Origin: a virus
Direction: 5' to 3' (one strand)
IMG/VR virus record: IMGVR_UViG_3300031963_000542
Coordinates: 1 to 33,822 of that record
DNA: 33,822 nt
The position numbers and the translations under genes were made by a program. Below the pieces are notes generated by a model. That model was not told the DNA's origin, searched no databases, and saw only the letters and a list, made by a program, of their open reading frames with translations. Positions 12,722-33,822 of this stretch are shown here, piece after piece. Each line of letters starts with the position of its first letter. Position 1 is the stretch's first letter.

Positions 12722-12722
12722 G

Positions 12723-12752: not shown

Positions 12753-12785
12753 GTTCGGTAGACTTGAGTGAGATAGGCGGACTAA

Positions 12786-16998: not shown

Positions 16999-17026
16999 TA
17001 AACTAATCTAAGAACAAAGGAACCCA

Positions 17027-20511: not shown

Positions 20512-20513
20512 TT

Positions 20514-20756: not shown

Positions 20757-21025
20757 CTTCTTCTTCTCTCGCTATCTGTAGTTCCGCCCCAGATTCCGTG
20801 CATACCCGCTGACACGGCATAGTCAAGACATCTAATCTTTACTGGGCATACCGAGCAAATAGCCTTAGCCTCATTAGCGACCAGTTTTCGGTCATGGGGG
20901 CTACCCACAAGATCATCTGGAAAAAACAGATTTGGGTCTACGGCACACCCCACTCCGCCTGGCACATCCCTAATAGCTTCTTGAAGCTCGATGTATTTGC
21001 GTTCTAATTGTCGGTGGCTAAGCAT
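20753..21025 (-). CDS. whiB: WhiB-family Fe-S transcription regulator
   Basis: 90 aa, the only minus-strand gene I accept. Four cysteines C27, C57, C60 and C66 bind a [4Fe-4S] cluster, and GIWGG at 77-81 is the family turn, followed by a short basic tail (SERRRS). WhiB proteins occur only in actinobacteria and their phages and act with the sigma factor on promoters. It lies at the junction of lysis and early genes. No SD precedes the start, and a candidate promoter places transcription at or next to the ATG, so it may be leaderless. It may regulate host or phage early genes. Confidence 0.93.
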   Translation of the reverse strand: MLSHRQLERKYIELQEAIRDVPGGVGCAVDPNLFFPDDLVGSPHDRKLVANEAKAICSVCPVKIRCLDYAVSAGMHGIWGGTTDSERRRS

Positions 21026-21028
21026 AGG

Positions 21029-21057
21029 TTTACATTACAGAAAAAACCCGCTAATGT
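21029..21057 (+). promoter_or_regulatory. Candidate early promoter
   Basis: TTTACA (21029-21034) and TAATGT (21052-21057) with a 17-bp spacer, a good sigma-70/SigA-type match, upstream of the early/DNA operon. It overlaps the divergent whiB promoter almost completely. Confidence 0.6.
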
Positions 21058-21061
21058 GAAA
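21034..21061 (-). promoter_or_regulatory. Candidate whiB promoter
   Basis: On the minus strand TTTCAC (21061-21056) and TGTAAT (21039-21034) are 16 bp apart. Initiation about seven bases on would fall near 21027, only a couple of bases before the whiB ATG at 21025, predicting a leaderless or nearly leaderless mRNA. Tentative. Confidence 0.45.
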
Positions 21062-21086
21062 TCCCACACCGAGTAGATGTGGGATT
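21060..21086 (+). promoter_or_regulatory. Inverted repeat in early leader
   Basis: Perfect 9-bp arms AATCCCACA and TGTGGGATT with a nine-base centre, just at and after the predicted early start. No T-run follows, so it is more likely an operator or a leader hairpin than a terminator. Confidence 0.55.
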
Positions 21087-21113
21087 CACGCCAAATGAAA
21101 GAGAGGGAAACAC

Positions 21114-22004
21114 TTGGCCTTATCAAAGCTACCAAGCGTAATAAACGAGATACAGGATGCCGTACTCCTAGGAGACTTCGAGAACGGCTCTCCAGAGTGG
21201 CATGAGCTACGAAACGAACCTGGTGCTATCGGCGGTTCGGACATTGCCGCCATCGCAGGTTTGTCACAATGGGAAAGCGCCTACACAAAATGGGCAAAAA
21301 AGACAAAACAAATTCCAGACAGCATTGAGCCATCTATGTCAATGCGACTCGGAACAAAACTAGAAACACCAATCGCAGAAATCTTTGCCGAAGAACATCC
21401 TGAGCTGGAACTTTACACAACAGGAACTTGGGCAAACAAAGAAGAACCTTGGATGCGTGCAAACCCTGACGCAATTTACGCAGACTCAACTGGTGAGTTT
21501 GGAATCCTAGAAGTCAAATTCTCACGCGACTACTGGACAGCCGTGCCTCAGTCTTACCGCGCTCAAGTTCTTTGGTACATGCGAGTATTCGGTTTGAAGC
21601 AAGCAAAACTTGTTGCGCTCGCAGGATCTAGTTATCAAGAGTTTGACATTGAGTGGGACCAGTTTGAAGCTGACGCTTTGTTTGCTGCTGCCATTCGGTT
21701 CCGCAACCATGTTGTTCAGGAGAGAGCGCCTGAGTGGGATGGCTCAACTTCAACACTTGAGACAGTCAAAAAACTAAACCCAAACATCGCAGAAGGCGAA
21801 GTAGACCTAGACGATTTAGGTATGCACTACTTCAACAAACTTGATGAGTTCGAGCGTGTTGAAAAGGAATTGACCGAGCTAAAGAGTAGAGTCCTATCTG
21901 CTATGAACGGCAACAAGAGGGGCTTGATTTACGGAGAACACCGAATTAGCCTCAGAGCTAGGGGTGCGGGATTGCCGTACCTACACCACGAGAAAGGGAA
22001 ATAA
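21114..22004 (+). CDS. YqaJ-type recombination exonuclease
   Basis: 296 aa from TTG 21114, six bases after GAGAGGG. The lambda-exonuclease/YqaJ nuclease fold is marked by EWHELRNEPGAIGGSDIAAI (residues 28-47), RLGTKLETPIAE with Glu84, MRANPDAIY with Asp119 and ILEVKF with E133/K135, the metal-binding core. It degrades one strand of duplex DNA from ends, leaving ssDNA for annealing. First gene of the early operon and directly followed by an annealing-protein candidate, the usual two-gene recombination module. Confidence 0.9.
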   Translation: MALSKLPSVINEIQDAVLLGDFENGSPEWHELRNEPGAIGGSDIAAIAGLSQWESAYTKWAKKTKQIPDSIEPSMSMRLGTKLETPIAEIFAEEHPELELYTTGTWANKEEPWMRANPDAIYADSTGEFGILEVKFSRDYWTAVPQSYRAQVLWYMRVFGLKQAKLVALAGSSYQEFDIEWDQFEADALFAAAIRFRNHVVQERAPEWDGSTSTLETVKKLNPNIAEGEVDLDDLGMHYFNKLDEFERVEKELTELKSRVLSAMNGNKRGLIYGEHRISLRARGAGLPYLHHEKGK

Positions 22005-22553
22005 ATGGCACACTTCAATCTCAATGAATACCAGACAGTACAAGAACGCATAGATTTATTTTGGAAAAAGTTTCCTGCGGGTCGGTTCAAGCTGGACATC
22101 GTAAGCCAGTCAGACACACAAGTCATCATCAGGGCTTCGGTTTGGACTGACAAGGCTGACAAGCACCCAACCACTGTGGACTTCGCTGAGGAGCGAATAG
22201 GCACTTCGCCTGTAAACAAGATAAGCCATGTCGAGAACTGTGCTACATCAGCTCTCGGTAGAGCGATTAGTGCTTTAGGTGGAGAGTTCAGCCCAAAAGG
22301 TAAACGACCATCCCGTGAGGAGATGGCAAAGGTAGAGCGCTCTAAGCAACCAGTTGCACAGCTAAAGGATTGGCTCGTAATGGCTCAGTCAATGGGCGAT
22401 GACCTTGACGGTCTTAGACTGTTATACAGCGAAGCCAAAACTGCCAACGCTCCAAAAGAAACCCTAGATAGGATTGCCGAAATTGCCAATGGATCATCTG
22501 GATATGAACATCCTGATAGCAAGCCTGCGGGAAGTGCAGGAGTGTCTGAATGA
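22005..22553 (+). CDS. Putative ssDNA annealing/recombination protein
   Basis: 182 aa starting immediately after the exonuclease stop. Central HVENCATSALGRAISALGGEF resembles the ETSA.GRALAALG element found in Erf-like and related phage annealing proteins; the N-terminal half is mixed alpha/beta and the C terminus is helical and low-complexity. Expected to pair complementary ssDNA produced by the exonuclease. Assignment rests on that motif and on the neighbour; it could be another ssDNA-binding protein. Confidence 0.65.
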   Translation: MAHFNLNEYQTVQERIDLFWKKFPAGRFKLDIVSQSDTQVIIRASVWTDKADKHPTTVDFAEERIGTSPVNKISHVENCATSALGRAISALGGEFSPKGKRPSREEMAKVERSKQPVAQLKDWLVMAQSMGDDLDGLRLLYSEAKTANAPKETLDRIAEIANGSSGYEHPDSKPAGSAGVSE

Positions 22554-22704
22554 GCAATGGGCTAGGGGCAACTACCCCGATGTGGACAAAATGTGGCAAT
22601 TACAAAGAGAAAAGTCAGAGAGGCTGAGAAATGGAGATTATTTCACCGACACACATCATCCAGGAGCTTCAGAGACTAACAGCGGAGATGGACAAGGGCA
22701 GTAA
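22504..22704 (+). CDS. Small helical protein of unknown function
   Basis: 66 aa from ATG 22504, starting inside the 3' end of the previous gene and running into the next. ASLREVQECLNEQWARGNYPDVDKMWQLQREKSERLRNGDYF reads as plausible helical protein, but the C terminus is low-complexity. Heavy overlap on both sides (about 50 and 74 bases) reduces confidence. Not recognised. Confidence 0.5.
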   Translation: MNILIASLREVQECLNEQWARGNYPDVDKMWQLQREKSERLRNGDYFTDTHHPGASETNSGDGQGQ

Positions 22705-22969
22705 CGCCCTCTATGACGCTGAGTGCAAAATGGCAGATGCTGAGGCTGCTTACGACAAAGCTGTCTCTCTTGCGTTCATAAACAACCAAGGAACCGTGGC
22801 TGACAGGCAGGCTGTGGCTAAGTTGCAGTCAGTAGATCAAAAGCTACAAGCTGACCTAGCCAGAGCTGAGTTCAATAGAGTCAAAACCAAGATGAAAACC
22901 CTGTCAGACCAGGCAACAATGATGGCTGTAATGTCCAAAAATGTTGAGCTTCAGTGGCGGACACCCTAG
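22631..22969 (+). CDS. Coiled-coil early protein
   Basis: 112 aa, ATG after GAGAGG. Nearly all helix: QELQRLTAEMDKGSNALYDAECKMADAEAAYDKAVS and later QKLQADLARAEFNRVKTKMKTLSDQATMM. This two-helix coiled-coil layout is common for small early actinophage proteins between recombination and replication genes. No catalytic motif; function unknown. Confidence 0.75.
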   Translation: MEIISPTHIIQELQRLTAEMDKGSNALYDAECKMADAEAAYDKAVSLAFINNQGTVADRQAVAKLQSVDQKLQADLARAEFNRVKTKMKTLSDQATMMAVMSKNVELQWRTP

Positions 22970-22985
22970 CTGGTAGCCTTGAAAG

Positions 22986-23204
22986 GTGATTGCTGAAAGC
23001 TGCTCATGTGGGGCAAAGTTCAAAACTGACGATGCCAAGGCGATAGCCCTAGTCAGAGAATGGCGTAGGAAACACAACTGTCAGGAAGCTGCATCCGAAA
23101 CACGAGACTATGAAATTAGCTCGACTATCGGTTTTTCGGCTGATTACACTGGCACAGGACTAGACCTACCTGCAAAGAAATACGACCCTTGGGAAGATGA
23201 ATAG
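22986..23204 (+). CDS. Small Cys-containing protein
   Basis: 72 aa from GTG 22986 (MIAESCSCGAKFKTDDAKAIALVREWRRKHNC). The CSCG and HNC pair may form a one-zinc site similar to short zinc-ribbon proteins in actinophage early operons. The C terminus is acidic (YDPWEDE). SD is weak and the start is uncertain. It overlaps the next gene by eight bases. Confidence 0.65.
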   Translation: MIAESCSCGAKFKTDDAKAIALVREWRRKHNCQEAASETRDYEISSTIGFSADYTGTGLDLPAKKYDPWEDE

Positions 23205-23538
23205 CAAAGAGTTTCAAAAATACATTAGACGCGATGAAGGAATTTGTTGTCATTGTGGAACTGATGACGATACACTCGTGCCACAACACAGACTAGGAAG
23301 GGGAATGGGCGGATCTAAAGAACGGGATGTTCCATCAAACATCATCGTAATTTGCTCATTAGCAAACGGACAGCTAGAGTCAAATGCAACCTTCGCTCAG
23401 ATGGGTAGAGATTTCGGTTGGAAGCTGACACAAGGACAGGACCCGAAGAAGGTTCCTGTTTGGTTGGCAGACGGCTGGTTTTTGTTAGACGATGAGTTTG
23501 GAAAGAAAAGAGTAAACCCGCATAAAGAAGCGGACTAG
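23197..23538 (+). CDS. HNH-like endonuclease-fold protein
   Basis: 113 aa. GICCHCGTDDDTLVPQHRLGRGMGGSKERDVPSNIIVIC contains a CxxC, the conserved His of QHR, and the Asn/Ile helix (SNIIVICSLANGQLE) of the small HNH fold seen in actinophage early genes. The second zinc Cys pair is incomplete, so it may bind DNA or metal without cutting. Located just before the replication initiator. Confidence 0.7.
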   Translation: MNSKEFQKYIRRDEGICCHCGTDDDTLVPQHRLGRGMGGSKERDVPSNIIVICSLANGQLESNATFAQMGRDFGWKLTQGQDPKKVPVWLADGWFLLDDEFGKKRVNPHKEAD

Positions 23539-23555
23539 AAAGAGGGAAAAGAGAG

Positions 23556-24194
23556 ATGAGCATTGAGGCAGTTGCTACTGTTCTAAATCACAGTAGGGCC
23601 ACAGGGCGTGCAAAGCTTGTGCTAATTGGCATTGCCAATCACTTAGGGGACCAGGGAGCTTGGCCCAGCATCAGCACCTTGGCACGCTACGCAAATGCTT
23701 CAGAGCGTTCGGTCAAGCGGGACATTCAAGAGCTTATGGAGCTGGGTGAGCTGCGTGTGGACCTTCAATCTGCTCCGATGAATAGCCAATACAAAACCAA
23801 CCTTTACTGGATCACAATTCAGTCAGGGGTGACAGGTGAGGTAAGCAGGGGTGACAGCTCAGGTAAATCAGGGGTGACACCTGTTGGCACGCAAAACATC
23901 AATATTAACCATAAAGAACCAAAGAGATACGCAACAAAAATTCCAGATGACTTTTGGCCTACAAAAGAGCTTTTAGATTGGCAGGGTGAACACTTCCCAG
24001 AAGTAGATTGGAAACTTGAGACGCACAAGTTTATTGACTACTGGAACTCGGTCAGCGGGAGCAAAGGCAACAAGACGGATTGGCAAGCCACCTGGCGCAA
24101 CTGGATACGAAACAACAAGAAGCCAAAGCGAGCCAGCCGAGAAGAAGAAAACAAGAAAGCAATGAGGGAGTTTCTAAAAAATGCAAAAGACTGA
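23556..24194 (+). CDS. Replication initiator, helix-turn-helix type
   Basis: 212 aa from ATG 23556 after AGAGGGAAAAGAGAG. The first 70 residues are a winged helix-turn-helix (AWPSISTLARYANASERSVKRDIQELMELGELRVD). A low-complexity linker (residues 90-115) is followed by a basic C-terminal domain (FIDYWNSVSG ... WQATWRNWIRNNKKPKR) typical of lambda-O/DnaD-like phage initiators. The linker DNA carries three iterons, so the origin is probably inside the gene, as in lambda O. The following gene is a helicase-loader candidate, overlapping by 14 bases. Confidence 0.85.
   Translation: MSIEAVATVLNHSRATGRAKLVLIGIANHLGDQGAWPSISTLARYANASERSVKRDIQELMELGELRVDLQSAPMNSQYKTNLYWITIQSGVTGEVSRGDSSGKSGVTPVGTQNININHKEPKRYATKIPDDFWPTKELLDWQGEHFPEVDWKLETHKFIDYWNSVSGSKGNKTDWQATWRNWIRNNKKPKRASREEENKKAMREFLKNAKD
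23824..23879 (+). repeat. Three iterons in the initiator gene (putative origin)
   Basis: Direct copies of CAGGGGTGACA start at 23824, 23846 and 23869, with similarity extending to about 20 bp (CAGGGGTGACAGsTsAGGTAA). The 22-23 bp period is about two helical turns. They are followed by an A/T-rich stretch (around 23893-23946), the layout expected for initiator binding plus unwinding. Confidence 0.75.
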
Positions 24195-24546
24195 GACAGC
24201 AGAACTAATCGAGTTTCTAAGCCTTGTAGACGGGCGCAAAATCTCTGGCGAAAAGATTATGGCTTGGCACGAAGTCCTAGGCTTCTTGGACTACCCTGTG
24301 GCTAAACAGGCGGTCATTGAAGCTCAGCGAGATGCGGCAATTCAGTACATCGAGCCAAAGCACATCTTGGGCAAGGCAAAGTCAATTCAAGAGAAAGCAA
24401 AAGCCGAGGCTGTCAGAGCTGAGCAGTTGAAGCAAAAGCCTCTGACATTCGGTTCAAGGATGCCAAAATGTCAGCACGGCATAGGACTATTGCTATGTGA
24501 TCCGTGTTGCAAAACAGCAGCTCAACAAGCTGGCTTGGTAAAGTAG
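24181..24546 (+). CDS. Putative helicase loader / replisome protein
   Basis: 121 aa. KIMAWHEVLGFLDYPVAKQAVIEAQRDAAIQYIEPKHIL matches a helical domain commonly found directly after phage replication initiators in actinobacteria, and the end holds a CxH...CDPC zinc-like cluster (residues 97-109). By analogy with lambda P it may load the host DnaB helicase. Evidence is context plus weak pattern; not confirmed. Overlaps the initiator by 14 bases. Confidence 0.6.
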   Translation: MQKTETAELIEFLSLVDGRKISGEKIMAWHEVLGFLDYPVAKQAVIEAQRDAAIQYIEPKHILGKAKSIQEKAKAEAVRAEQLKQKPLTFGSRMPKCQHGIGLLLCDPCCKTAAQQAGLVK

Positions 24547-24550
24547 GTGG

Positions 24551-24829
24551 GTGGATGAGAACAAAGCTATCTGTTCGCGTTGCGGTTCAACTTGGACTGT
24601 CAATGCTCAGAAGCGCGAGCGCACCGACCTTCGGTGTTTCTCCTGCCGTATGCGAAAATCTTTGGTCATCAAGTACGGTAGCCAGAAGTGCGTCACTTGG
24701 CAGGGTGAGTTTGACCGTGAGACGCTAACCGTTCCAATGTACGAAGGACACCCAGTATTGCCAGGATTACGCAGGTGTGGTCACATAGACTGCGTAAATG
24801 CTGAGCATGTTATCCAAGCGGATGACTAA
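24551..24829 (+). CDS. Zinc-binding HNH-related protein
   Basis: 92 aa from GTG 24551. Two CxxC pairs (CSRCG near residue 8, CFSC near residue 29) precede W.GEFDRETLTVP and CGHIDCVNAEHV, the pattern of a zinc-finger/HNH family frequent in actinophages. It likely binds nucleic acid. A related C-terminal motif recurs in the 28635-28850 protein (CSNPSCVRPDHV). SD is weak (GTAGGTG). Confidence 0.65.
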   Translation: MDENKAICSRCGSTWTVNAQKRERTDLRCFSCRMRKSLVIKYGSQKCVTWQGEFDRETLTVPMYEGHPVLPGLRRCGHIDCVNAEHVIQADD

Positions 24830-24855
24830 AATAGAAGAAAGAAAGAGAGGCTGAG

Positions 24856-25164
24856 ATGGCTACCATCGAAGTAAAAGGGAAAATCGGCAGGATTTTCTAC
24901 GAGAACAAGGGTCTTGAGGTTATCGAGACTTACACCACCAAAGCTGGCAAAGAAGTAAACGCTTACTACACCGTTTGGCTAAACACCCCTGGCACTTTTA
25001 GTGTTGGCGATGAAGTCAAGGTAAGAGGGCTTTACGGACACGAGATCTCCGAGTGGGACAACGAGGGCGAAACCAAGCGTAAGGTAAAGGTTTCGGTAAA
25101 CAATCCTCTAGTCACAACGACTTCAGAAGGCTTTGCCCCGACACACGGAGACACACCCTTTTGA
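24856..25164 (+). CDS. SSB-like protein (OB-fold)
   Basis: 102 aa. Five-strand beta pattern (IEVKGKIGRIFYENKGLEVIETYTT ... AYYTVWLNTPG ... GDEVKVRGLYG ... KRKVKVSV) fits an OB fold. The C terminus DTPF resembles the conserved acidic SSB tip (DxPF) that recruits partner proteins. Expected to cover ssDNA during replication and recombination. Only the tip and fold pattern are seen; exact family not confirmed. Start ATG follows GAGAGG. Confidence 0.65.
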   Translation: MATIEVKGKIGRIFYENKGLEVIETYTTKAGKEVNAYYTVWLNTPGTFSVGDEVKVRGLYGHEISEWDNEGETKRKVKVSVNNPLVTTTSEGFAPTHGDTPF

Positions 25165-25322
25165 GAATCATCCAATGGCTTCTCCCGTCATCTACTGGAC
25201 TACTTTTGCTAAACCTATCTAAGACAGCAGAAGGATTCTGGAATGTGGCGGGAGTCGCTGTTGGAGTTTTTTACATCTGGGCTGGCCTCAGTGCCGCCTG
25301 GATGATTTATGTCAGAAACTGA
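25161..25322 (+). CDS. Small membrane protein
   Basis: 53 aa from TTG 25161 overlapping the previous stop (TTGA). Two hydrophobic stretches (PSSTGLLLLNLS, and VAGVAVGVFYIWAGLSAAWMIYV) with a short charged linker. Its end overlaps the resolvase start by 14 bases, so it is likely translated in the same operon. Function unknown. Confidence 0.6.
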   Translation: MRIIQWLLPSSTGLLLLNLSKTAEGFWNVAGVAVGVFYIWAGLSAAWMIYVRN

Positions 25323-25725
25323 ATTTACAATCTCGGTAGTCGGAGACCCTGCCTCTCAGGGATCACACGCCATTATGAACGGGCGAATCGTTCAGGTCAA
25401 TTCCAAAAAGCACAAGGCTTGGCGCTCAGCTATTGTCAGTGCCTGTATAGACAACCTGCCTGAAGGCTGGGAGCCACTAGATGAGCCAGTAGAGCTAATC
25501 GTCAATTTCTACATGTTGAAGCCAGCGTCAGTCAAACGCTCATTGCCTGCCGTAGCCCCCGACTTAGACAAGCTGATTCGGTCAGTCGGAGACGCTCTAG
25601 CCATAGCTGGCGTTTATGCAGATGACTCTCGCATAGTCCGCATAAGCGCTCGCAAGCTGTATGCCACAGGCATAGAACCAGGCGCAACAATCTCGGTAAA
25701 AACTATGCGACACGCCGAAGAATAA
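25309..25725 (+). CDS. rusA: RusA-type Holliday junction resolvase
   Basis: 138 aa. The acidic signature APDLDKLIRSVGDAL (D85, D87, K88, D95) and GVYADDSRIV (D105/D106) is the RusA metal-binding core. N-terminal VVGDPASQGSHAI and the strand IVNFYMLKP fit the dimeric fold. The enzyme cuts four-way junctions during phage recombination and before packaging. Last gene before an intergenic promoter region. Confidence 0.9.
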   Translation: MSETEFTISVVGDPASQGSHAIMNGRIVQVNSKKHKAWRSAIVSACIDNLPEGWEPLDEPVELIVNFYMLKPASVKRSLPAVAPDLDKLIRSVGDALAIAGVYADDSRIVRISARKLYATGIEPGATISVKTMRHAEE

Positions 25726-25739
25726 AAATACCTAAATCT

Positions 25740-25800
25740 TGCTTTTTCTCTAAATTTTTGCTAATTTCAATTTGTTAGCTAAATAGCTGACATAACGAAA
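25740..25800 (+). promoter_or_regulatory. A/T-rich promoter/operator region
   Basis: Between the resolvase and the small-gene array. TTGCTT (around 25739) and TAATTT (around 25762), 17 bp apart, form a candidate promoter. GTTAGCT AAAT AGCTGAC (25774-25791) is a nearly perfect inverted repeat placed near the predicted start, a likely operator. SD GAGGG follows before ATG 25809. Confidence 0.5.
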
Positions 25801-25808
25801 GAGGGAAC

Positions 25809-26051
25809 ATGCCAACAAATTCACCAATGCAGATTGAGTTCGATTCGAGCGACTACAACCCACACCAGTACAACCACGGGGTTGCACAAGCCGAAGGAAT
25901 CACAATCGGCAGAAGCCTAATGAAAGAGGAAGTGTTGCGACTGATAAATGCCGCATACCCGACTCCGACTAAGGCCACCAAGATTATTACTGACTTGATT
26001 GAGGGGATTCAAATTGAGACGGATTCTGTCCTTTCTTTATCCAGCAGATAA
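25809..26051 (+). CDS. Small early protein, YxxG family member 1
   Basis: 80 aa. YNHGVAQAEGITIGRSLMKEEVLRLINAAYPT carries the (Y/F)-x-x-G...G...L/I motif found in four following small genes. The N terminus is acidic and Asn-rich; the C terminus is helical. First gene after the promoter region. Function unknown. Overlaps the next start by 38 bases. Confidence 0.65.
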   Translation: MPTNSPMQIEFDSSDYNPHQYNHGVAQAEGITIGRSLMKEEVLRLINAAYPTPTKATKIITDLIEGIQIETDSVLSLSSR

Positions 26052-26208
26052 ATTGACTGCCTACAACCAGGGCAGGCGCGATGAGCAAATGGCCGTTGAA
26101 TCACTGATTGAGGCGTTTCGGCTTAGCAGATGGCTAGACATCGCAACATGCAACATTATTCTTGACCACTTGAATCACATAGATCGCAGACCGAAGGGAA
26201 AACTATGA
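26014..26208 (+). CDS. Small early protein, YxxG family member 2
   Basis: 64 aa from TTG 26014, chosen because GAGGGG (26001-26006) sits seven bases upstream; TTG 25999 would be too close to that SD. Contains TAYNQGRRDEQMAVESLIEAF, again a YxxG followed by an amphipathic helix. Basic N terminus (MRRILSFLYPADK). Function unknown. Confidence 0.6.
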   Translation: MRRILSFLYPADKLTAYNQGRRDEQMAVESLIEAFRLSRWLDIATCNIILDHLNHIDRRPKGKL

Positions 26209-26414
26209 GTGACCTACAAGACATCATCGTAAACAGCTCCATCAAGGCTTTCAAGAACGGCTATCACTTTGGCAAGACCGAAGAACTAAACCGTGTAGTC
26301 GGCTTGCTACAACAGCACGAACAGGAAACCAAATGCGATTGCGAAGGATGCAACTCCTGGACTAATGCCTTTGAGTTCATCATCAAAGAAATAAAGGGTG
26401 AGGTCAATGGCTGA
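26205..26414 (+). CDS. Small early protein, YxxG family member 3
   Basis: 69 aa with KNGYHFGKTEELNRVVGLLQQHE, then CDCEGC (a possible metal cluster) and an acidic helical end. Four-base overlap with the previous stop (ATGA). Part of the tandem small-gene run. Confidence 0.65.
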   Translation: MSDLQDIIVNSSIKAFKNGYHFGKTEELNRVVGLLQQHEQETKCDCEGCNSWTNAFEFIIKEIKGEVNG

Positions 26415-26583
26415 CAGTCAATACACCAGCGGGTTTGAGGCAGGCAAAGACTATGCCCGTAAACAAATCCTTGATTACATTCAGCAACATTTGGAAGAAG
26501 AAGTAGACATTACTTCGGAAGACATCGCAAGTGAGATTGAATACCTACAGCGTCAAGAGATAAGGGAGAAAAACAATGGATGA
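26407..26583 (+). CDS. Small early protein, YxxG family member 4
   Basis: 58 aa from ATG 26407 (GGGTGAGG upstream; a longer in-frame reading starts at 26398). YTSGFEAGKDYARKQILDYIQQHLEEE shows the family motif most clearly. Acidic helical protein, end overlaps the next start by eight bases. Confidence 0.65.
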   Translation: MADSQYTSGFEAGKDYARKQILDYIQQHLEEEVDITSEDIASEIEYLQRQEIREKNNG

Positions 26584-26728
26584 GGACTTTACGACAGAAA
26601 CAAAGCTTGACCTTCTCAGCATTGAGCTAGATGCACTAGCCAACGAGATTCAGGCGATTGAAGATGGCTTGATTGCCATACAGAAGAAATACGGAAGGGA
26701 AAACGATGAGGCTGTTCAATCCAACTGA
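26576..26728 (+). CDS. Small acidic helical protein
   Basis: 50 aa from ATG 26576 after AAGGGAG. Composition is a single acidic helix (LDLLSIELDALANEIQAIEDGLIAIQKKYG). Overlaps neighbours by 8 and 23 bases. Function unknown; lacks the YxxG motif. Confidence 0.6.
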   Translation: MDEDFTTETKLDLLSIELDALANEIQAIEDGLIAIQKKYGRENDEAVQSN

Positions 26729-26900
26729 GACTGACCAAAAGGCCAAAGCCTACGCAAAAGGCTACGAGCGCGGCTCAAAAGAAATGTCAGAACATCTGCG
26801 GGAAATGATTATCTACAACTTGCTCAACGATGCCGTGCTTAGTACCTGTATGGGTACAGAGACTATGGAGAAGATTGTCCAGATTGTCGAGGAATCCTAA
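26706..26900 (+). CDS. Small early protein, YxxG family member 5
   Basis: 64 aa from ATG 26706, chosen for GGAAGGG just upstream rather than the upstream in-frame start at 26673. AKAYAKGYERGSKEMSEHLREMIIYNLL repeats the family motif. Its stop overlaps the next start (TAATG). Confidence 0.65.
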   Translation: MRLFNPTETDQKAKAYAKGYERGSKEMSEHLREMIIYNLLNDAVLSTCMGTETMEKIVQIVEES

Positions 26901-27025
26901 TGGGTAAGCATGTAGGAGTCAGAAGAAGAACGACAGTCTTTGAGTACCGCTACTACTACCGCCGAGTCATGGCTGCGTGGATCAGGATTAGAAGACTAAT
27001 CAAAGCCAGGCTAAATCATGGATGA
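26900..27025 (+). CDS. Tiny very basic protein
   Basis: 41 aa, Arg/Tyr-rich (GVRRRTTVFEYRYYYRRVMAAWIRIRRLIKARL), from ATG 26900 overlapping the previous stop, with GAGGAA upstream. High positive charge suggests nucleic acid or membrane contact; no family recognised. The next start lies within its last codons. Confidence 0.6.
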   Translation: MGKHVGVRRRTTVFEYRYYYRRVMAAWIRIRRLIKARLNHG

Positions 27026-27209
27026 GCTAGAAAAAGCACTGAAACTGCTAGATGACAAGAATCTAGTCTGGTCTCAGGATTTCGACACGATTCGGTTAGA
27101 ATTGTCTCAGCTAATGCGAAAGGCTGCCGAAGTGCGATACCGTGAACTTGAAGCTGAACTTGACAGCTTAGCTAAGGGAATAACAAATGAAAGGGAAAAC
27201 AATGCTTGA
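27018..27209 (+). CDS. Small acidic coiled-coil protein
   Basis: 63 aa, amphipathic (LEKALKLLDDKNLVWSQDFDTIRLELSQLMRKAAEVRYRELEAELDSL). No catalytic residues. Part of the tiny-gene array; overlaps the next start by eight bases. Confidence 0.65.
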   Translation: MDELEKALKLLDDKNLVWSQDFDTIRLELSQLMRKAAEVRYRELEAELDSLAKGITNERENNA

Positions 27210-27423
27210 AGGGCTAACACCACCAAAGAAAATTCCAGCGTGCAAGGTTCGAGCCTTGATGGAATCACTGGATGACAAAGATAAAGTTTCACTCAAGGCA
27301 GCTCTGGACAATCCTGACTGGGGACATCAGGGGCTTGCTCTTGAACTAAACAAGCGCGGACTGTTTATCAGCGAACACCCAATCAGGAAACACCGAATCG
27401 GAAGATGCAGTTGCCATGCTTGA
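27202..27423 (+). CDS. HTH-like small DNA-binding protein
   Basis: 73 aa from ATG 27202, preferred over 27187 because AAAGGG (27191-27196) is the SD. CKVRALMESLDDKDKVSLKAALDNPDWGHQGLALELNKRGLFISEHPIRKHRIGRCSCHA resembles, over several short lines, actinophage proteins with a helix-turn-helix and a final RHR.G.CSC motif. Directly precedes and overlaps the phosphoesterase by eight bases, a pairing I recall from other actinophages. Likely a DNA-binding partner. Confidence 0.65.
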   Translation: MLEGLTPPKKIPACKVRALMESLDDKDKVSLKAALDNPDWGHQGLALELNKRGLFISEHPIRKHRIGRCSCHA

Positions 27424-28570
27424 AAACTTAGAGCCAACCCCTAAGATTACGGCCCCTAGGGATTGGCGGCCTGCGGTGGAATTTGATGGCATGAACGGAC
27501 TTGCCACCACACCACCGACCACTGGCAACCAGCCAGACTTCACTCAGTTTCTTATTGACCAAGGCTTTGACCCTGAGAGAGTAGAGATCTACGGTCCTGT
27601 AAGAACATCACGCTGGCAACAGCGCGAGGGTGGGGACTGGCTGGTTAGCTGGCGGTTCAACTTTCGGTTGAAGGCAGAGCTAGAGTTTGACCTACCGACA
27701 CTTTATGCTCAGGCAAAAAAGACAAAGTTGCCAGCCGTAAAAGAAACAAAGCAAGGCAAAGCACTTGTCATTATTCCAGCAGACTTTCAAGTAGGCAAGA
27801 CAGGCTCTCGAGGAAACACTCAAGACCTAATCGCCAGAGTCTTTGCAAGCTACAAGCGCATCGAGCAGAAGCTAAAGAAGGGTGGCTACGAAAAAGTTGT
27901 CATCCTTGATGCAGGAGACATGATTGAGTCAGTCTCCAACTCAGCTCAGTTCGCCCAGCTAGATTCAAACGACCTTAGCCCAATGCAACAGGTGGACATG
28001 GCTGCTGCCCTGCTATGGGATTTGGTCAAGCTGGCTCATAAGTACGCACCAGTAACCTATGCTTCGGTTGCTTCCAATCATTGTCAGTGGCGCTTCAACG
28101 GACAGACTGTTGGCAAGCCAGGGCAAGATGACTGGGGCATCGTTATCCTGCAACAGCTCCGCAGACTAAGTAGCGAGCTTGGGATGAATGTCACTTATCT
28201 AATTCCTGACCCTTACGATGAGTCACTGGCTTTTGATGTATTTGATGACCAGTTCCATGTCATCGGCTTAGCTCACGGACATCAGGCAAAACGACCTAAT
28301 GGCATGGAAGGCTGGCTACAGAAGCAAGGGTTCTCCAATGCCCCTATTGCTGCCTGGACTACATTTGTCAGCGGTCATTTCCATCATCTTCGGATAGAGG
28401 AACTTGGTCAGTCTCACAACGGCGGATCACGCTACTGGATTCAGGCAAGCACTATGGACAACGGATCTGATTGGTTCAGGCTTCAGTCGGGAACTGACAG
28501 CGCAACTGGGATAGTTTGTTTTGAGCTGGAGCGACAGGTTCACTTCCAAGGCACGGTATGGAAACTGTAA
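27416..28570 (+). CDS. Calcineurin-like metallophosphoesterase
   Basis: 384 aa. N-terminal about 110 residues are specific to this type; the catalytic part has PADFQVGKTG (122-131), LDAGDMIE (164-171) with D165/D168, SNHCQW (220-225) in place of GNHD, AHGHQ (286-290) and SGHFHH (319-324), the metal ligands of the fold. It could cleave phosphodiesters in DNA, nucleotides or another phosphorylated target; the substrate is not evident. It sits in the DNA module right after an HTH-like partner. Confidence 0.82.
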   Translation: MLENLEPTPKITAPRDWRPAVEFDGMNGLATTPPTTGNQPDFTQFLIDQGFDPERVEIYGPVRTSRWQQREGGDWLVSWRFNFRLKAELEFDLPTLYAQAKKTKLPAVKETKQGKALVIIPADFQVGKTGSRGNTQDLIARVFASYKRIEQKLKKGGYEKVVILDAGDMIESVSNSAQFAQLDSNDLSPMQQVDMAAALLWDLVKLAHKYAPVTYASVASNHCQWRFNGQTVGKPGQDDWGIVILQQLRRLSSELGMNVTYLIPDPYDESLAFDVFDDQFHVIGLAHGHQAKRPNGMEGWLQKQGFSNAPIAAWTTFVSGHFHHLRIEELGQSHNGGSRYWIQASTMDNGSDWFRLQSGTDSATGIVCFELERQVHFQGTVWKL

Positions 28571-28683
28571 TTGACCAGCACACTCAGGGCTTCTTAGATG
28601 CTTTGAGACGGATAGATGCAAGGAAAAGGGAACAATGCGAGAAGCAACAAGAAACCGAAGAAACTACTGCTGGAACGAAATAG
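28558..28683 (+). CDS. Tiny charged protein
   Basis: 41 aa (METVIDQHTQGFLDALRRID...), with AAGG six bases upstream of the ATG. Starts in the last codons of the phosphoesterase. Rich in Glu/Lys/Gln; overlaps the HNH-like gene in another frame by about 49 bases, so one of the two could be spurious. Confidence 0.4.
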   Translation: METVIDQHTQGFLDALRRIDARKREQCEKQQETEETTAGTK

Positions 28684-28850
28684 ATGCAGAAAAAACTTTG
28701 GGTGCCAGGACTTGCAGTAATCCCTCTTGCGTTCGGCCTGATCATGTCATTCCTGCTATTGAGATGGAGTGGTGGGACATCAGCTATCGAACAGGCAAAA
28801 AGCTTACGCATCAAGAAACCTACGAAAAGATAGTGAGTGAATCATGGTAG
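28635..28850 (+). CDS. Short HNH/zinc-finger-like protein
   Basis: 71 aa from ATG 28635 with strong AAGGG upstream. TCSNPSCVRPDHVIPAIEMEW resembles the C-terminal CGHxxCVxxxHV motif of the 24551-24829 protein, so it may be a shortened relative that keeps the zinc/His part. Another ORF (28684-28833) encodes a membrane-like protein in a different frame over the same DNA. This frame has the better SD and motif. Confidence 0.6.
   Translation: MREATRNRRNYCWNEIDAEKTLGARTCSNPSCVRPDHVIPAIEMEWWDISYRTGKKLTHQETYEKIVSESW
28684..28833 (+). CDS. Overlapping membrane-protein ORF (uncertain)
   Basis: 49 aa starting at ATG directly after the 28681-28683 stop. One hydrophobic helix (WVPGLAVIPLAFGLIMSFLLL) and a basic tail (LRIKKPTKR). 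Entirely nested in another frame of the 28635-28850 gene. SD is weak. Either a genuine nested gene or a by-product of the other frame's composition. Confidence 0.3.
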   Translation: MQKKLWVPGLAVIPLAFGLIMSFLLLRWSGGTSAIEQAKSLRIKKPTKR

Positions 28851-28960
28851 CGATTCTTTTGATTTGCCCTAATGGACACATGCTTGAAATGATTATTGGA
28901 CCCAAAAGCTCCTTGCCTTCGGTCTGCCTAACCTGCAACACACCTTTTGGAAAGAAGTAA
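28844..28960 (+). CDS. Tiny zinc-ribbon protein
   Basis: 38 aa, with CPNGHM (residues 8-13) and CLTC (28-31), a four-ligand zinc-ribbon layout. ATG 28844 overlaps the previous stop, and its own stop overlaps the methyltransferase ATG. Function unknown; may assist nucleic acid recognition. Confidence 0.6.
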   Translation: MVAILLICPNGHMLEMIIGPKSSLPSVCLTCNTPFGKK

Positions 28961-29446
28961 TGCCAAGTCTAGGAAACGAAACAACGGTCTCGGCTACCGA
29001 TGTATGGCTAACTCCGCCGCACATTCTTGAAGCTCTTGGACCGTTTGACTTAGATCCATGCTCATCTGAGGACAGACCATGGGACACAGCTAAGACTCAC
29101 TACACAATCAAAGACGATGGACTAAGCCAAGCTTGGTTTGGTCGTGTTTGGTGCAACCCACCTTACGGACCTAAGATGTCTCCGTTTTTGGAGAAGCTTG
29201 CCACCCACCCAGGGGGGGGGGGTGGCTTTAGTGTTCGCTAGGACAGAGACGAGAGCTTTCTTTGATCATGTCTGGGATAAAGCCACTGGGATTTTGTTTC
29301 TAAAGGGAAGGCTCAAGTTTCACAAGCCTGATGGCGAGATAGGCGGCACAGCAGGAAGTCCGTCAGTTTTGATTGCTTACGGAGATGCAGAGGCAGAAGT
29401 GCTGAAGAACTGCAAGCTAAACGGAAAGTACATAAGAATAAACTAA
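28960..29446 (+). pseudogene. Adenine DNA methyltransferase split at poly-G
   Basis: As read, the ORF stops at 29241 after 93 aa. Removing one G from the 11-G run at 29212-29222 joins it to the frame ending at 29446 and gives a 161-aa protein. Residues 29-34 (FDLDPC) and 66-70 (NPPYG) are the SAM-site and catalytic motifs of phage N6-adenine methyltransferases (Dam-like); the restored C terminus has ALVFARTETRAFFDHVW and FHKPDG. The fit around the tract (PGGGVALVF) is natural. Either the gene is phase-variable, frameshifted in vivo, or the homopolymer length is a sequencing error. It would protect phage DNA from restriction or regulate it. Confidence 0.8.
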
Positions 29447-29619
29447 TGCCAACCTACGAATACCAATGCCAGTGTGGGGACACAACCACAATCGTTCGGT
29501 CAATCACATCAGAGGAAAACAAACCTATCTGCGCTAAATGTGCCGTTGAGATGACAAGAATTTACGATAAACCCGCCATAGAGTTCAAGGGGGGCGGTTG
29601 GGCTGGGAAAGAGTCTTAG
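29446..29619 (+). CDS. FmdB-type zinc-ribbon protein
   Basis: 57 aa beginning MPTYEYQCQCGDTTT, the usual FmdB opening, then a second CAKC pair and IEFKGGGWAG near the end, also typical. Binds one zinc; role in phages unknown. ATG overlaps the methyltransferase stop. Confidence 0.75.
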   Translation: MPTYEYQCQCGDTTTIVRSITSEENKPICAKCAVEMTRIYDKPAIEFKGGGWAGKES

Positions 29620-29685: not shown

Positions 29686-30015
29686 ATGTACGCAAAACCC
29701 TGCCTAGATTGTGGAAGGCTGACCAAAGGCGGATCACGCTGTGAGACTCACCAGAAAATGATTGAGCAAAGGCTAGAAGCCAAGCGTGCCGAGAGAAAAA
29801 GAGAAACAGGACAGTACGCAGGAGACTACAGAAAGCGTGCCAAACAGGTCCGAGACTCAGCCCTTTACTGCCACCTATGCAACGAAGGCATGAGAATAGA
29901 TGACCCATTCCAAGCTGACCACTTGATACCAGGAGACCCTAACAGTCCACTAGCACCAGCTCACAGATCATGCAATGCACGCCGAGGGAACAAGCCGCTT
30001 GCCACCACCGACTGA
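29686..30015 (+). CDS. HNH endonuclease
   Basis: 109 aa. N-terminal CLDCGRLTKGGSRCETH zinc part, then LYCHLCNEG, and the catalytic QADHLIPGDPNSPLAPAHRSCNARRG, a complete HNH motif with the CxxC pairs. Siphoviral HNH proteins near the terminase assist DNA cleavage in packaging; if the molecule is circular or terminally joined, this gene lies upstream of terS. GGGGGG precedes the start in place of a classic SD. Confidence 0.88.
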   Translation: MYAKPCLDCGRLTKGGSRCETHQKMIEQRLEAKRAERKRETGQYAGDYRKRAKQVRDSALYCHLCNEGMRIDDPFQADHLIPGDPNSPLAPAHRSCNARRGNKPLATTD

Positions 30016-30062: not shown

Positions 30063-30178
30063 ATTCGGTCAAAATTCGGTTGAGATTCGGTTGAAAAGTT
30101 GTTAGATTCGGTCCGATATTCGGTCAGGATTCGGTTGGAAAAATTCTGAGATTCGGTCAGATTCGGTAAATATTCGGT
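30063..30178 (+). repeat. Helically phased ATTCGGT array
   Basis: Nine exact ATTCGGT copies start at 30063, 30074, 30085, 30106, 30118, 30129, 30151, 30161 and 30172. Steps are 10-12 bases or twice that, so sites face the same side of the helix; one missing step (around 30143) holds a degenerate ATTCTGA. The full unit is close to GATTCGGTTGA, same orientation throughout. Non-coding. The layout suggests cooperative binding by a small protein, as in partition sites, origins or packaging sites. Confidence 0.85.
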
Positions 30179-30207: not shown

Positions 30208-30274
30208 CTTCTCGAACACTTGTTTCGAAAATTTGTTCGAAACACTTGTTCGAAACACTTGTTCGAAGGCTTGC
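30208..30274 (+). repeat. 13-bp TTCGAAACACTTG array
   Basis: Five head-to-tail units with CGAA at 30213, 30226, 30238, 30251 and 30264 (12-13 bp period). Two central units are exact TTCGAAACACTTG. TTCGAA is itself palindromic. The array follows the ATTCGGT array after about 30 bases. Confidence 0.8.
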
Positions 30275-30676
30275 GGATCTGAAACCGCCCCGCCCTAGGC
30301 TTGCCGCCCTGATTGAGACACCGAACCCGCCGCCGCGAGACTGACCGACACCGCGCAACCGACAGACACGGGCAACAGCTAAAGCAAAAGAGCAACCCCG
30401 CCGAAATAGACAAACGCGCCCGAAGGCATAAAGACACCCCGCGAGACGGACAGACACCGACAACGGGCAAAGGCGGCAGGGCGTACACAATAAAGAGGTA
30501 AGAGCGCCCCGAAACAGGGCCAGACACCGAAACGGGCCAGACAGGGCAAAAAAAGCCAAAAACGACTTTATAACAATTTGATAACGACACGCAGAAAAAC
30601 GGAAAAAAACGCAAAAAAAGATAAAAAACTGCTATCTTTGACCTATCGCCCGAAAGGGCCTTAGGAAAGGGAAAAA
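30275..30676 (+). other. Non-coding A/C-rich spacer and leader
   Basis: No convincing gene. The plus strand is A/C-rich with recurring GACAGACAC/CAGACACCG words (around 30360, 30445 and 30520). A basic 62-aa ORF (30313-30501) lacks an SD and a family. From about 30560 the DNA is A-rich, with a small GCCC-GAAA-GGGC hairpin at 30648-30659 (GNRA loop) just before the SD of the next gene; TTGACC near 30638 may be a -35. Together with the two arrays this forms a 660-bp intergenic region. Confidence 0.6.
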
Positions 30677-30832
30677 ATGACCAAGTTTATCCTAAACATG
30701 GTATTTCTGTTTGGCGCTTTGTTGGTTTGTTGGAACTTACAAGACAACGGACAAAACACCGCGGCGGCCTTGCTTTTGGTTGTCTCGCTTGCTTTGGCTT
30801 TTGTTCTACAAATCGAAGAAGGCAAAAAATGA
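30677..30832 (+). CDS. Small membrane protein of the islet
   Basis: 51 aa from ATG 30677 after GGAAAGGGAAAAA. Two hydrophobic segments (ILNMVFLFGALLVCW and AAALLLVVSLALAFVLQI) separated by an Asn/Gln linker. First gene after the repeat arrays; overlaps the next start (ATGA). Confidence 0.65.
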   Translation: MTKFILNMVFLFGALLVCWNLQDNGQNTAAALLLVVSLALAFVLQIEEGKK

Positions 30833-31005
30833 TTACTTGTGATATGGCGGGATGCTTTGATATGGCAGAATATACCGCCGAATTTGACGAAGACGAAGAA
30901 ACAAACCAAGAACAAATTTTCAGCATATGCGAAAGTTGCGCGCAGTATTGGCGCGAACACAAAGAAGAAACACCGCTAATAACAGCATGGAAAGGGACAA
31001 AATGA
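30829..31005 (+). CDS. Small Cys-rich acidic protein
   Basis: 58 aa from ATG 30829, with GAAGAAGG upstream. C4, C9, C36 and C39 (CDMAGC and CESC) form a likely zinc site around an acidic helix (EFDEDEETNQEQ). Overlaps the next start (ATGA). Function unknown. Confidence 0.65.
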   Translation: MITCDMAGCFDMAEYTAEFDEDEETNQEQIFSICESCAQYWREHKEETPLITAWKGTK

Positions 31006-31607
31006 CAATTCTAGAAATTTTGGAAAGAGCAACGCCGCCAACATATGAAACAACACTAAGCAACGGAAAGCGCCTAGCCTTATGGCCTGAAATGGGACAG
31101 GTAGACCTTGAAGATATCCTAGGCGACCTTATCGGGGTACAAACTTTGTCAATAGACAGGTTTCTCAGCGAGATCCAGACAAACGACAAACACCGCGACC
31201 CTATTGCGGAAATCATAGAAAGACACGGCGGACAGACAACAGAAACAGAAACCGCAATATCTAAACACCTAGACCGCGCAGGGATGAATTACCAATTTGT
31301 TAGCTTGAGAGGCTACAGCCAAGGCGATTGGGCCGAGGTTGTAATCTACGCAGAAAGCGAAACAGTCGGAAACTTAAACGGCGCGGCGGATGAGTTAAGG
31401 GCATGGTTTAGGGGCGACATATTCACCCTATGTCTGGAAGACCTAAAAACCTACACAGCGCCAGACGGCGAAAGTTTAGCGCGCTGGGAAGTTGAAGACG
31501 CATTAGGCGGCATGGTTATATCCGAAAGCTACGGATTGAAAAACAGAGATATTGACTGGGACACGCTCGCCCTAGACGCTTTTGGCCTAGACATTACCAA
31601 AAACTAA
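31002..31607 (+). CDS. Acidic accessory protein with GYSQGD motif
   Basis: 201 aa from ATG 31002, preferred for AAAGGGA upstream and the ATGA overlap; an upstream in-frame extension would run through the previous gene. Mid-protein FVSLRGYSQGDWAEVVIYAE resembles a motif I recall from uncharacterised plasmid and phage accessory proteins. Strongly acidic, mixed alpha/beta. No catalytic signature. Candidate anti-defence or DNA-mimic partner by context only. Confidence 0.65.
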   Translation: MTILEILERATPPTYETTLSNGKRLALWPEMGQVDLEDILGDLIGVQTLSIDRFLSEIQTNDKHRDPIAEIIERHGGQTTETETAISKHLDRAGMNYQFVSLRGYSQGDWAEVVIYAESETVGNLNGAADELRAWFRGDIFTLCLEDLKTYTAPDGESLARWEVEDALGGMVISESYGLKNRDIDWDTLALDAFGLDITKN

Positions 31608-31631
31608 CAACAAAAAAACGAAAGGGAAAAA

Positions 31632-32054
31632 ATGACAGTACAACAAGAAACGCAAATAGTCGCTTGGAACGGCGAGACATACAGGGGCGCGGGTGATTGG
31701 TACGACAAATTCACAACAGACCCCGAATTCACGGAATACACGGAAAGCCTAGACCCAGACCAAATTCTTAGACTGGCGCTTTTCGCGTATAACGGCGCAT
31801 GGGGCCTAGTTCCTGAAGACATGGCGGCCTTTATTGGACAAGAAGAAGAAAGCTACCGAGGCGAGGCAGAAAGCGCCGCGGAATTCACCCGCGAGATCAT
31901 CGAAGAAATGGGCTACATTACCGCAGATATGCCTAGCTGGGTTGTTATTGATTACCAAGCAACATGGGACAGCGCGCTTAGGTTTGACTTTTTTGAGTAT
32001 CAAGTTATAGACATAGATGGAAATTACCGCCAATTTTTTTGGTGGAATAACTAA
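31632..32054 (+). CDS. ArdA-like antirestriction protein
   Basis: 140 aa, very acidic. The region EESYRGEAESAAEFTREIIEEMGYI plus MPSWVVIDYQATWDSALRFDFF and the final GNYRQFFW parallels the C-terminal part of ArdA proteins (ESY.G.y.s..dFa.e...e.g ... yID...a..l). ArdA mimics B-form DNA by its negative charge and blocks type I restriction enzymes. The usual N-terminal domain seems short or absent, so identity is tentative. The A-rich leader before it is repeated at other islet genes. Confidence 0.6.
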   Translation: MTVQQETQIVAWNGETYRGAGDWYDKFTTDPEFTEYTESLDPDQILRLALFAYNGAWGLVPEDMAAFIGQEEESYRGEAESAAEFTREIIEEMGYITADMPSWVVIDYQATWDSALRFDFFEYQVIDIDGNYRQFFWWNN

Positions 32055-32078
32055 CAAACAAAAAACGAAAGGGAAAAA

Positions 32079-32435
32079 ATGGGAAACCGTAGCAACATAG
32101 TTATTAGAGAAACAGCAACACAGACAGACAACTGCCTTATTCTTTATTCACACTGGGGCGGGGATGACAACCTAACCGCTGTTAGAAATGTAATGGCAAA
32201 AACCGACAGGGTTGGGGATAGCTACCTAGCCGCCCAGATATTTCACGAATTCACAAAGCTAGGCGGCTATGAAGGAAATTTAGGTTATGGGTTATGGGTT
32301 GGAAGTGTTGAAGAAATAGACGAAGACGACAACCCCGCCATATTCTTAGACATAGACACAGGCGCGGCAACTTACCAAGGCGCGACCTACACGCTACAGG
32401 GGCGACACCTTGTAAGAGAAACCGCAACACTCTAA
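32079..32435 (+). CDS. Accessory protein, SHWGG type
   Basis: 118 aa. MGNRSNIVIRETATQTDNCLILYSHWGGDD, with a later GYGLWVGSVEEIDEDDNPAIFLDID, resembles a small family seen in actinophages and plasmids whose function I do not know. Acidic. ATG 32079 is preceded by the same A-rich CGAAAGGGAAAAA leader as the ArdA-like gene. Confidence 0.65.
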   Translation: MGNRSNIVIRETATQTDNCLILYSHWGGDDNLTAVRNVMAKTDRVGDSYLAAQIFHEFTKLGGYEGNLGYGLWVGSVEEIDEDDNPAIFLDIDTGAATYQGATYTLQGRHLVRETATL

Positions 32436-32454
32436 AAAAACAGGAAAGGGAAAA

Positions 32455-32817
32455 ATGAACAACACAATAAGGCAATTACGCCTAAGCGACATTGACGCGC
32501 TAAAGACGCTACTAGAAAAGATATGGGCGTTAGGGGATAAAGACGAAATGAGCATTAAGCACATAGGCCACGGATTAGCGGCCTTAGCAACTTATGGGAC
32601 ATGGAAAGCGGCGCTAGATTACGAACTGCCAGATATGGACATGACAGAAAGGCAACTCGAAAGACTTAGCGAATACTGGCAACAGGTGAAAGAGTTTCTA
32701 TATGGTGTTAGCCGTGATGAGCTTATGAGCGTGTTTCAATATCTGCCTATCGCTGTTTATGGCGCTGTTTACTTAGAGAGCCACGCGGACTACTACAGAG
32801 AGGGCGGGACAAAGTGA
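32455..32817 (+). CDS. Helical accessory protein
   Basis: 120 aa, helical (IDALKTLLEKIWALGDKDEMSI ... ERQLERLSEYWQQVKEFLYG), no known motif. SD is GGAAAGGG just before ATG 32455. Overlaps the next gene by four bases (GTGA). Confidence 0.65.
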   Translation: MNNTIRQLRLSDIDALKTLLEKIWALGDKDEMSIKHIGHGLAALATYGTWKAALDYELPDMDMTERQLERLSEYWQQVKEFLYGVSRDELMSVFQYLPIAVYGAVYLESHADYYREGGTK

Positions 32818-33008
32818 GAGAGTGGAGAATACAGCGCCCCGCGCGTATTTGGGTAGAGGCAACAGTCAAAGCGGACACGCTAGAAGACGCGTTAGAGATA
32901 GCAGATAAAGAGATATCTAACGGCGACTTTATAGAGGTAGACGAAAGCTGGGAAGTTAACTGGGATGAATTCTGGGCCAAGGATGACAAAGGAGAAACTT
33001 TTGGCTAA
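32814..33008 (+). CDS. Small acidic accessory protein
   Basis: 64 aa from GTG 32814. MREWRIQRPARIWVEATVKADTLEDALEIADKEI resembles, by pattern, small phage/plasmid proteins of unknown role; the C-terminal half is acidic and Trp-rich (ESWEVNWDEFWAKDD). Overlaps the previous stop and the next start. Confidence 0.65.
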   Translation: MREWRIQRPARIWVEATVKADTLEDALEIADKEISNGDFIEVDESWEVNWDEFWAKDDKGETFG

Positions 33009-33282
33009 CGCAAACAGAACCCGCTCAATACTAGCCGCGCAGAAAGTTAGGCGGGTAGACGACCCTAAAGCGATTGAACAGGCGCTAAAGCTAACGCCTG
33101 AACAGCGCCGCGAAATGTTCGCCCCGAAAGCCGCAACAGCGGCCCCGCAACACTTACAAGGCAACGATTGGGTGAGAGCTTGGCGAACTGTTGAAAAGAT
33201 AACCTACGGCCTAACAGCCTTTAGCGCGCTAATCTTTGGCGGCCTGATAGTTGGCGAGAGTAAGAAAAGCGTCAAGCAATAA
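33001..33282 (+). CDS. C-terminally membrane-anchored accessory protein
   Basis: 93 aa from TTG 33001, chosen because AAAGGAG (32988-32994) is six bases upstream; ATG 32965 is an alternative. Basic N-terminal half, then a transmembrane helix (YGLTAFSALIFGGLIVG) and a short basic tail (ESKKSVKQ). Last gene of the islet before a terminator. Confidence 0.6.
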   Translation: MANANRTRSILAAQKVRRVDDPKAIEQALKLTPEQRREMFAPKAATAAPQHLQGNDWVRAWRTVEKITYGLTAFSALIFGGLIVGESKKSVKQ

Positions 33283-33330: not shown

Positions 33331-33822
33331 AGCTTTGTCTGCTGATCTGCCCCCTGCCCCCCTATGCCCGACACACAGACAACAGAAGACAAACAAACAA
33401 AGACAACACAGGGCGGCCCCCTGCCCTATGCCCTGCCCCTGCCATGCCTAGCTAACAAAGCAACAAAGAAAGACAAAGACGAAACCCCGCAGGCATTAGA
33501 TAGACAGGGGAGACCCTGCCAAGGATAGAGAGAGCAACGGGCCACGCCTGCCCCCTGCCCCTGCCCTGCCACGCCTAGCCAATCAAACACTAGAGACAGG
33601 CAACAACAAACAACCCGCTTAGATACAGGCCAGACAAGGCTCTTATCTGTTAGCCTTGTGCGCCTTGTAGAGACTACGAACAACGCAACAGGCAAATCAC
33701 TATCCTGCCAAAATACGGCCCCGCTACGCCCTGCCTAAGCCCTATAAGGCTAGGCTACGGCCCTACCCCCCGCGTAGCCCCTAGGGTGGGGTATTTTCTG
33801 ACACGCCCACACGCTCCGAGAC
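33331..33822. other. C-rich non-coding right end
   Basis: About 490 bases with no supported gene. The plus strand is unusually rich in C/A, with recurring CTGCCCC and CCATGCCTAG/CCACGCCTAG words around 33340-33590. Near the end GGCTACG (about 33753) and CGTAGCC (about 33772) can pair around a 13-base loop, and CCCTAGGG lies beyond. It may be a chromosome end, packaging or transfer-like site, but nothing here is diagnostic. Confidence 0.5.

Follow-up and report, generated by a model that had tools for sequence, protein, structure and literature searches.

To our knowledge, dispersed motifs confined to one strand are rare in phage genomes. Nick sites are the best-known one-strand class, and their function has resisted explanation for decades. 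ParR-type partition sites consist of direct repeats of about 11 bp. Phage tf carries 14 nick sites, TACTRTGMC, on one strand (PMC3517423), and nick motifs have been described in 61 related phages (PMC11780129). The stoperators described in the literature are asymmetric and dispersed, point in the direction of transcription and are inactive when reversed (PMC9283540, PMC6550527). In some lambdoid phages, Chi sites are concentrated around packaging sites (PMC3784561).

Here, we describe a tandem array that is the dense end of a short motif placed on one DNA strand along a phage genome. Its separate parts resemble known kinds. The combination of a coding-embedded one-strand motif, a tandem array and an all-or-none link to a gene islet was not found in a literature search of incomplete coverage.

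Results

The window, that is, the whole stretch of DNA analysed (33,822 b), is an entire IMG/VR virus record. Its first base is the exact start of many independent contigs of relatives, and contigs spanning the joint carry about 12 extra nt (ACCCCGCCCCGC) between its last and first base. It follows that the window represents a whole linear genome bounded by cos ends (Table 1). With the exception of whiB, the genes run rightward: terminase, portal, protease, capsid, tail, a YqaJ exonuclease, an annealing-type protein, an O-like initiator, RusA, a Mre11-type exonuclease and HNH, then the islet. Glycosyltransferase and nucleotidyltransferase-like genes lie between the capsid and tail genes (8565-10833), and a collagen-like Gly-X-Y repeat protein is encoded among the late genes (4127-4951). 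The best match in genome collections was within a Microbacteriaceae MAG, and the nearest isolate, Pontimonas phage phiPsal1, which is described as lytic, has a Microbacteriaceae host. Thus, the host is likely a member of the Microbacteriaceae.

Table 1. Features of the phage genome and their positions in the window.
Feature	Position	Strand	Remarks
Left cos end	1..77	.	Many independent contigs begin at base 1
Dispersed TTCGGT sites outside the array (44)	966..29500	+	None from the array to the right end
Dispersed TTCGGT, part 1	966, 1538, 2764, 2971, 3418, 3929, 4171, 4285, 5337, 5642, 5920, 6326, 6501, 6675, 9030	+	
Dispersed TTCGGT, part 2	9623, 10306, 11584, 11992, 12754, 13526, 13765, 13946, 14046, 15277, 16167, 16375, 18961, 20585, 20887	+	
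Dispersed TTCGGT, part 3	21588, 21694, 22136, 23413, 23708, 24448, 24630, 25092, 25577, 27091, 27663, 28063, 28918, 29495	+	
Major capsid gene	7323..8507	+	Unenriched in motif
HNH endonuclease gene	29686..30015	+	Last gene of the long rightward set; abuts cos in islet-less relatives
Array of nine ATTCGGT	30063..30178	+	Consensus unit GATTCGGTYR, period ~11 bp
Second repeat array	30212..30267	.	Overlapping LexA/SOS-box-like palindromes (TCGAACACTTGT-TTCGAA and repeats), 13-bp period
Phased A-tracts	30589..30628	+	10 bp phasing, upstream of the first islet gene
Accessory islet	30677..33282	+	Variable genes between the array and the right cos end
ArdA-like anti-restriction gene	31632-32054		Islet member
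Right cos end	33700..33822	.	~12 nt (ACCCCGCCCCGC) of spanning contigs absent between window end and start

The array lies in non-coding DNA between the end of the HNH gene (30015) and the start of the first islet gene (30677). Exact copies of ATTCGGT start at 30063, 30074, 30085, 30106, 30118, 30129, 30151, 30161 and 30172 on the plus strand, with spacings of 11, 11, 21, 12, 11, 22, 10 and 11 bp. These data bear out an earlier, sequence-only reading, which had described nine identical 7-mers in one orientation, nearly all at steps of 10-12 bases or twice that, in a non-coding region; the measured steps were 10-12 or 21-22 bp throughout. That reading had also suggested looking for the spacing in related phages, and the ~11-bp period held over 31 homologous arrays, in which 83 of 175 steps were exactly 11 bp. 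The best period was 11.2 bp rather than 10.5, and the strict placement on one face of the helix that this reading implied is therefore only approximate. Abutting 11-bp footprints fit the array better. The array can also be read as three ~43-bp higher-order units, and is kept downstream of HNH in about 30 relatives. Cooperative or polar protein binding at this site is plausible, as had been proposed, but the functions named for it were not supported, as described below.

The array is not merely a local element. In the whole window, ATTCGGT occurred 25 times versus 2.4 in shuffles (maximum 7, 100 shuffles); the 16 copies outside the array, 14 of them on the same strand, had been missed earlier. 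Among all hexamers in the coding strand, TTCGGT showed the largest excess, with 41 occurrences versus 7.6 expected from synonymous-codon shuffles. By strand, the coding sequences contained 41 plus-strand sites versus 9 of the complement, which is at expectation (~7.7 for each in shuffles). The dispersed sites, 41 of 44 of which are inside annotated genes, occupy all three codon phases, so they do not reflect an amino-acid or codon effect. Codon bias as an artefactual cause of the excess was ruled out by these phases together with the synonymous shuffles. In relatives, ~425 roughly independent dispersed sites had the flanks of the array unit, with G/A before and Y then R after the core; the consensus GATTCGGTYR is common to dispersed sites and array. 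The dispersed sites were conserved between relatives above permuted hexamers, with some turnover. No regular spacing of the dispersed sites was found, and no convincing helical partner sites around single sites. The minus-strand whiB genes, which bear on whether polarity follows transcription or the genome, carried 3 sites versus 1.1 expected in genome orientation and 1 versus 0.55 in gene orientation.

We compared related phages with and without an islet between HNH and cos. Those with the islet have the array at the HNH-cos junction and genome-wide enrichment of the motif. In the genes of 17 array/islet-bearing sequences, TTCGGTY occurred 228 times versus 33.3 expected (complement, 31 versus 27), as compared with 27 versus 28.4 in 20 islet-less relatives; these totals count related genomes as separate, kinship being ignored. 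At least a dozen islet-less relatives share this early gene order and lack an array, the cos region and terS coming immediately after HNH. Consistent with this contrast, phiPsal1, which is islet-less and was added after these counts, had 7 sites versus 5.5 expected. TTCGGT ranked first among hexamers in nearly all array-bearing genomes tested and was unenriched in array-less relatives.

The order of HNH, array and pre-cos islet was found in the window's clade, G003, G005, G026, G019, G004, G327, L375 and L378, although in G004 and G327 the array is inside the islet rather than directly after HNH. The arrays of these relatives consist of the motif or its TTTGGTT variant, and in the AT-richer sister lineages L378 and L376 array and dispersed sites shift jointly towards TTTGGTY. 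In G004, G327, L375 and L378, a hairpin/terminator comes after the array, with a new promoter region beyond it. L107/L108 were weakly enriched (8 versus 3.1), with a degenerate mini-array and an islet present, and L399 has a TTTGGTT array yet little dispersed enrichment. Overall, given the clean contrast between islet-bearing and islet-less relatives, the islet, the array and the one-strand motif thus occur together or not at all. This co-occurrence strongly supports the suggestion that the array is tied to the islet it directly precedes.

The islets themselves are spared: in 107 kb, they contained 6 plus-strand sites versus 6.5 expected from composition. An apparent flip of polarity inside the islet proved to be mostly composition (94 minus-strand sites versus 59 expected). 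The capsid gene is likewise spared, with 7 sites in 18.4 kb (16 homologues) versus 2.5-2.8 per kb in the flanking genes, perhaps because codon choice is constrained in a highly expressed gene. The last islet gene (32965-33282) encodes 105 aa with a C-terminal hydrophobic segment; it is kept in the window's clade and G003/G005/G026, and not in G019, G004 or G327.

Directly to the right of the ATTCGGT array stand further repeats, TCGAACACTTGTTCGA, with overlapping TTCGAA palindromes. This stretch folds very stably (z -6.2) and has strong hairpin potential. The sequence TCGAACANNTGTTCGA, which occurs about once per small Microbacteriaceae genome, matches the LexA box of the inferred host family. 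Genes downstream of it in Microbacteriaceae include a LysM protein and DUF6504-like proteins (named by eye), surroundings that we take to be SOS-type neighbourhoods. On this basis, the phage repeats at 30212-30267 are best interpreted as putative LexA boxes preceding the islet. No window gene contains TTCGAA (0 versus 7.3 expected), a sequence that some host-like genomes avoid too. The A-tracts may represent bent DNA or an UP-like element.

We also sought a reader of the motif, and found none. In no case did the presence of a gene coincide with that of the motif in every positive lineage. The families of a helical protein at 27018 (two helices, AlphaFold) and of an FmdB zinc ribbon seemed perfectly associated with the motif in a first, narrower search; both turned up in motif-negative phages when the search was widened, and they were rejected as specific readers. 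No islet gene is common to all array-bearing lineages, so an islet protein as common binder is unproven. The proteins scanned included none recognisable as the product of a repressor, integrase or lysogeny gene (repressor by Pfam/PHROGs). In candidate-host Microbacteriaceae chromosomes, TTCGGT was not enriched (74 versus about 79 expected), and the extended motif was rare in 148 Actinomycetes genomes. The lack of enrichment in host-like chromosomes speaks against host Chi or KOPS, although a reader could still be host-encoded.

Discussion

We tentatively propose, with less than even confidence, that genome-wide one-strand GATTCGGTYR sites, carried only with the islet, act by roadblock or silencing, and that the array is their dense element at the boundary. 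By analogy with mycobacteriophage stoperators, an orientation-sensitive binding or roadblock site is the best available mechanism. One orientation-sensitive protein, phage- or host-encoded, would bind the sites. Single sites would act as polar roadblocks or silencing sites against rightward transcription of the main gene set, which the array would halt strongly at the junction. The islet, separately promoted (with LexA boxes in the window's clade), would be insulated and independently expressed as its own domain. In support of a roadblock, the array closes the rightward gene set and, in four lineages, is followed by the hairpin/terminator and promoter region noted above. Against it, nearly all sites are intragenic whereas most stoperators occupy short intergenic gaps, the scanned proteins yielded no repressor, integrase or lysogeny gene, and the closest isolate is described as lytic.

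It is possible, if doubtful, that these phages carry an undescribed polar genome-marking system. Gain of the islet would then have been accompanied by the one-strand motif elsewhere, with islet and capsid gene exempt, and the array would serve either as a boundary or to load a reader (translocase, nickase, silencer or RNA binder) unlike known families.

Among described systems, nick motifs are the main rival: they suit the dispersed sites at least as well as stoperators do, but not the array. TTCGGTY would mark programmed one-strand interruptions in virion DNA, and the array would be a nick cluster at the islet boundary. Known nick motifs are short, asymmetric, one-strand, mostly in coding sequence and phage-family-specific; the dispersed sites look alike, forming a family-specific one-strand motif across the genome. 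However, the known cases have ~9-14 sites without a tandem array, and nicking at nine sites 11 bp apart would remove one strand along about 110 nt. No gene could be singled out as a nickase, and HNH also occurs in motif-negative relatives. We regard this explanation as unlikely.

We give similarly little credence to an RNA-level element, in which UUCGGUY in rightward transcripts would be the target of a protein or RNA, with the array as a 3'-UTR binding platform of the main transcript. The sites follow the coding strand, the array is upstream of terminator hairpins in several lineages, its RNA is predicted to be unstructured (z +0.9) and the capsid gene, presumably the most expressed, is spared. 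By contrast, no RNA-binding partner was found, and footprints of a DNA-binding protein would also account for the 11-bp tandem period and the deep conservation. Two-step entry of the genome is quite improbable. The islet end would enter first (cf. T5 first-step-transfer DNA), the array would be the stop or handover, and the dispersed sites would pull in or protect the rest. The islet is at one cos end and has an upstream region of its own as well as an ArdA-like gene, and the motif exists only with the islet and is absent from it; however, we know of no precedent for genome-wide sites in such a role.

Chi-like sites, controlling an exonuclease that enters from the right end and favouring recombination, are very improbable. 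The sites are polar, dispersed, densest 3.65 kb from the cos end and oriented against a right-entering enzyme, and Chi is likewise concentrated near the packaging sites of some lambdoid phages (PMC3784561). Nevertheless, the motif is unenriched in the chromosomes of the candidate hosts, its extended form is rare in Actinomycetes, and the same recombination genes occur in motif-negative relatives.

Host-Chi, origin and packaging readings are disfavoured by the tests made, the latter two having been suggested for the array earlier. The O-like initiator gene contains its own iterons, GGGGTGAC (23824-23879, ~22-bp period), which are the probable replication origin; they are conserved in several relatives, and in others the initiator module is swapped. 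ACCGAA iterons with an 11-bp period, encoding KPNQNRTET-like linker peptides, occur in the initiator genes of many unrelated phages (L206, L214, L294-L333), and most of the comparable 11-bp TTCGGT arrays in unrelated phages are likewise iterons within initiator genes. Direct repeats in non-coding DNA and these 11-bp iterons notwithstanding, it is highly improbable that the array is a set of origin iterons or a TerS site: the motif is unchanged across at least three unrelated initiator types, the genome ends, proposed earlier as a check for packaging starts near the array, map to cos at the window ends, at a distance of 3.65 kb, and relatives that lack the array have homologous terminases that do without it. 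Equally hard to credit is a centromere-like partition site for an extrachromosomal form, which the 11-bp direct repeats resemble: no ParM/ParR pair was visible, as noted earlier, no ParM, ParA or TubZ gene was found among the proteins scanned, and partition leaves the genome-wide one-strand motif unexplained.

Among phages that are otherwise syntenic, the motif is gained or lacking as a whole together with one gene module. This constitutes a natural experiment on the purpose of such motifs, in phages of likely Microbacteriaceae hosts, abundant in fresh water. What looks like a local repeat array can be just the most conspicuous part of a code that extends along the genome.

Parts of the locus can be set beside known systems. 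ParR/parC-type centromeres share the direct repeats of ~11 bp; unlike them, the array occurs in a phage with genome-wide copies and without a recognised partition gene. Chi sites share polarity, shortness, genome-wide enrichment and density near a genome end; they differ in that the phage motif is unenriched in candidate hosts and forms a tandem array. The second array resembles actinobacterial LexA/SOS boxes (TCGAAC-N4-GTTCGA in the third box of relatives) but comprises several overlapping boxes, and would be a candidate for regulation by LexA. The nick motifs of tf/Rembedalsseter, phiKMV-like phages and T5 are, like the motif described here, short, asymmetric, on one strand, embedded in coding sequence and limited to one phage group; the present motif, a candidate for nicking, has more sites, a dense 11-bp array and the islet link. 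Finally, the stoperators of Cluster A mycobacteriophages (L5, TipsytheTRex) are asymmetric, dispersed, in one orientation relative to transcription and phage-specific, as are the sites here (41 versus 9 in coding sequences), with similar numbers per genome (20-30 versus 44) and motif drift between relatives in both. By contrast, the phage motif has a shorter core and is mostly intragenic, in all frames (41/44 in genes), rather than mostly in short intergenic or promoter regions; no repressor was found among the proteins scanned, and the motif has a tandem array at a boundary and a link to an islet.
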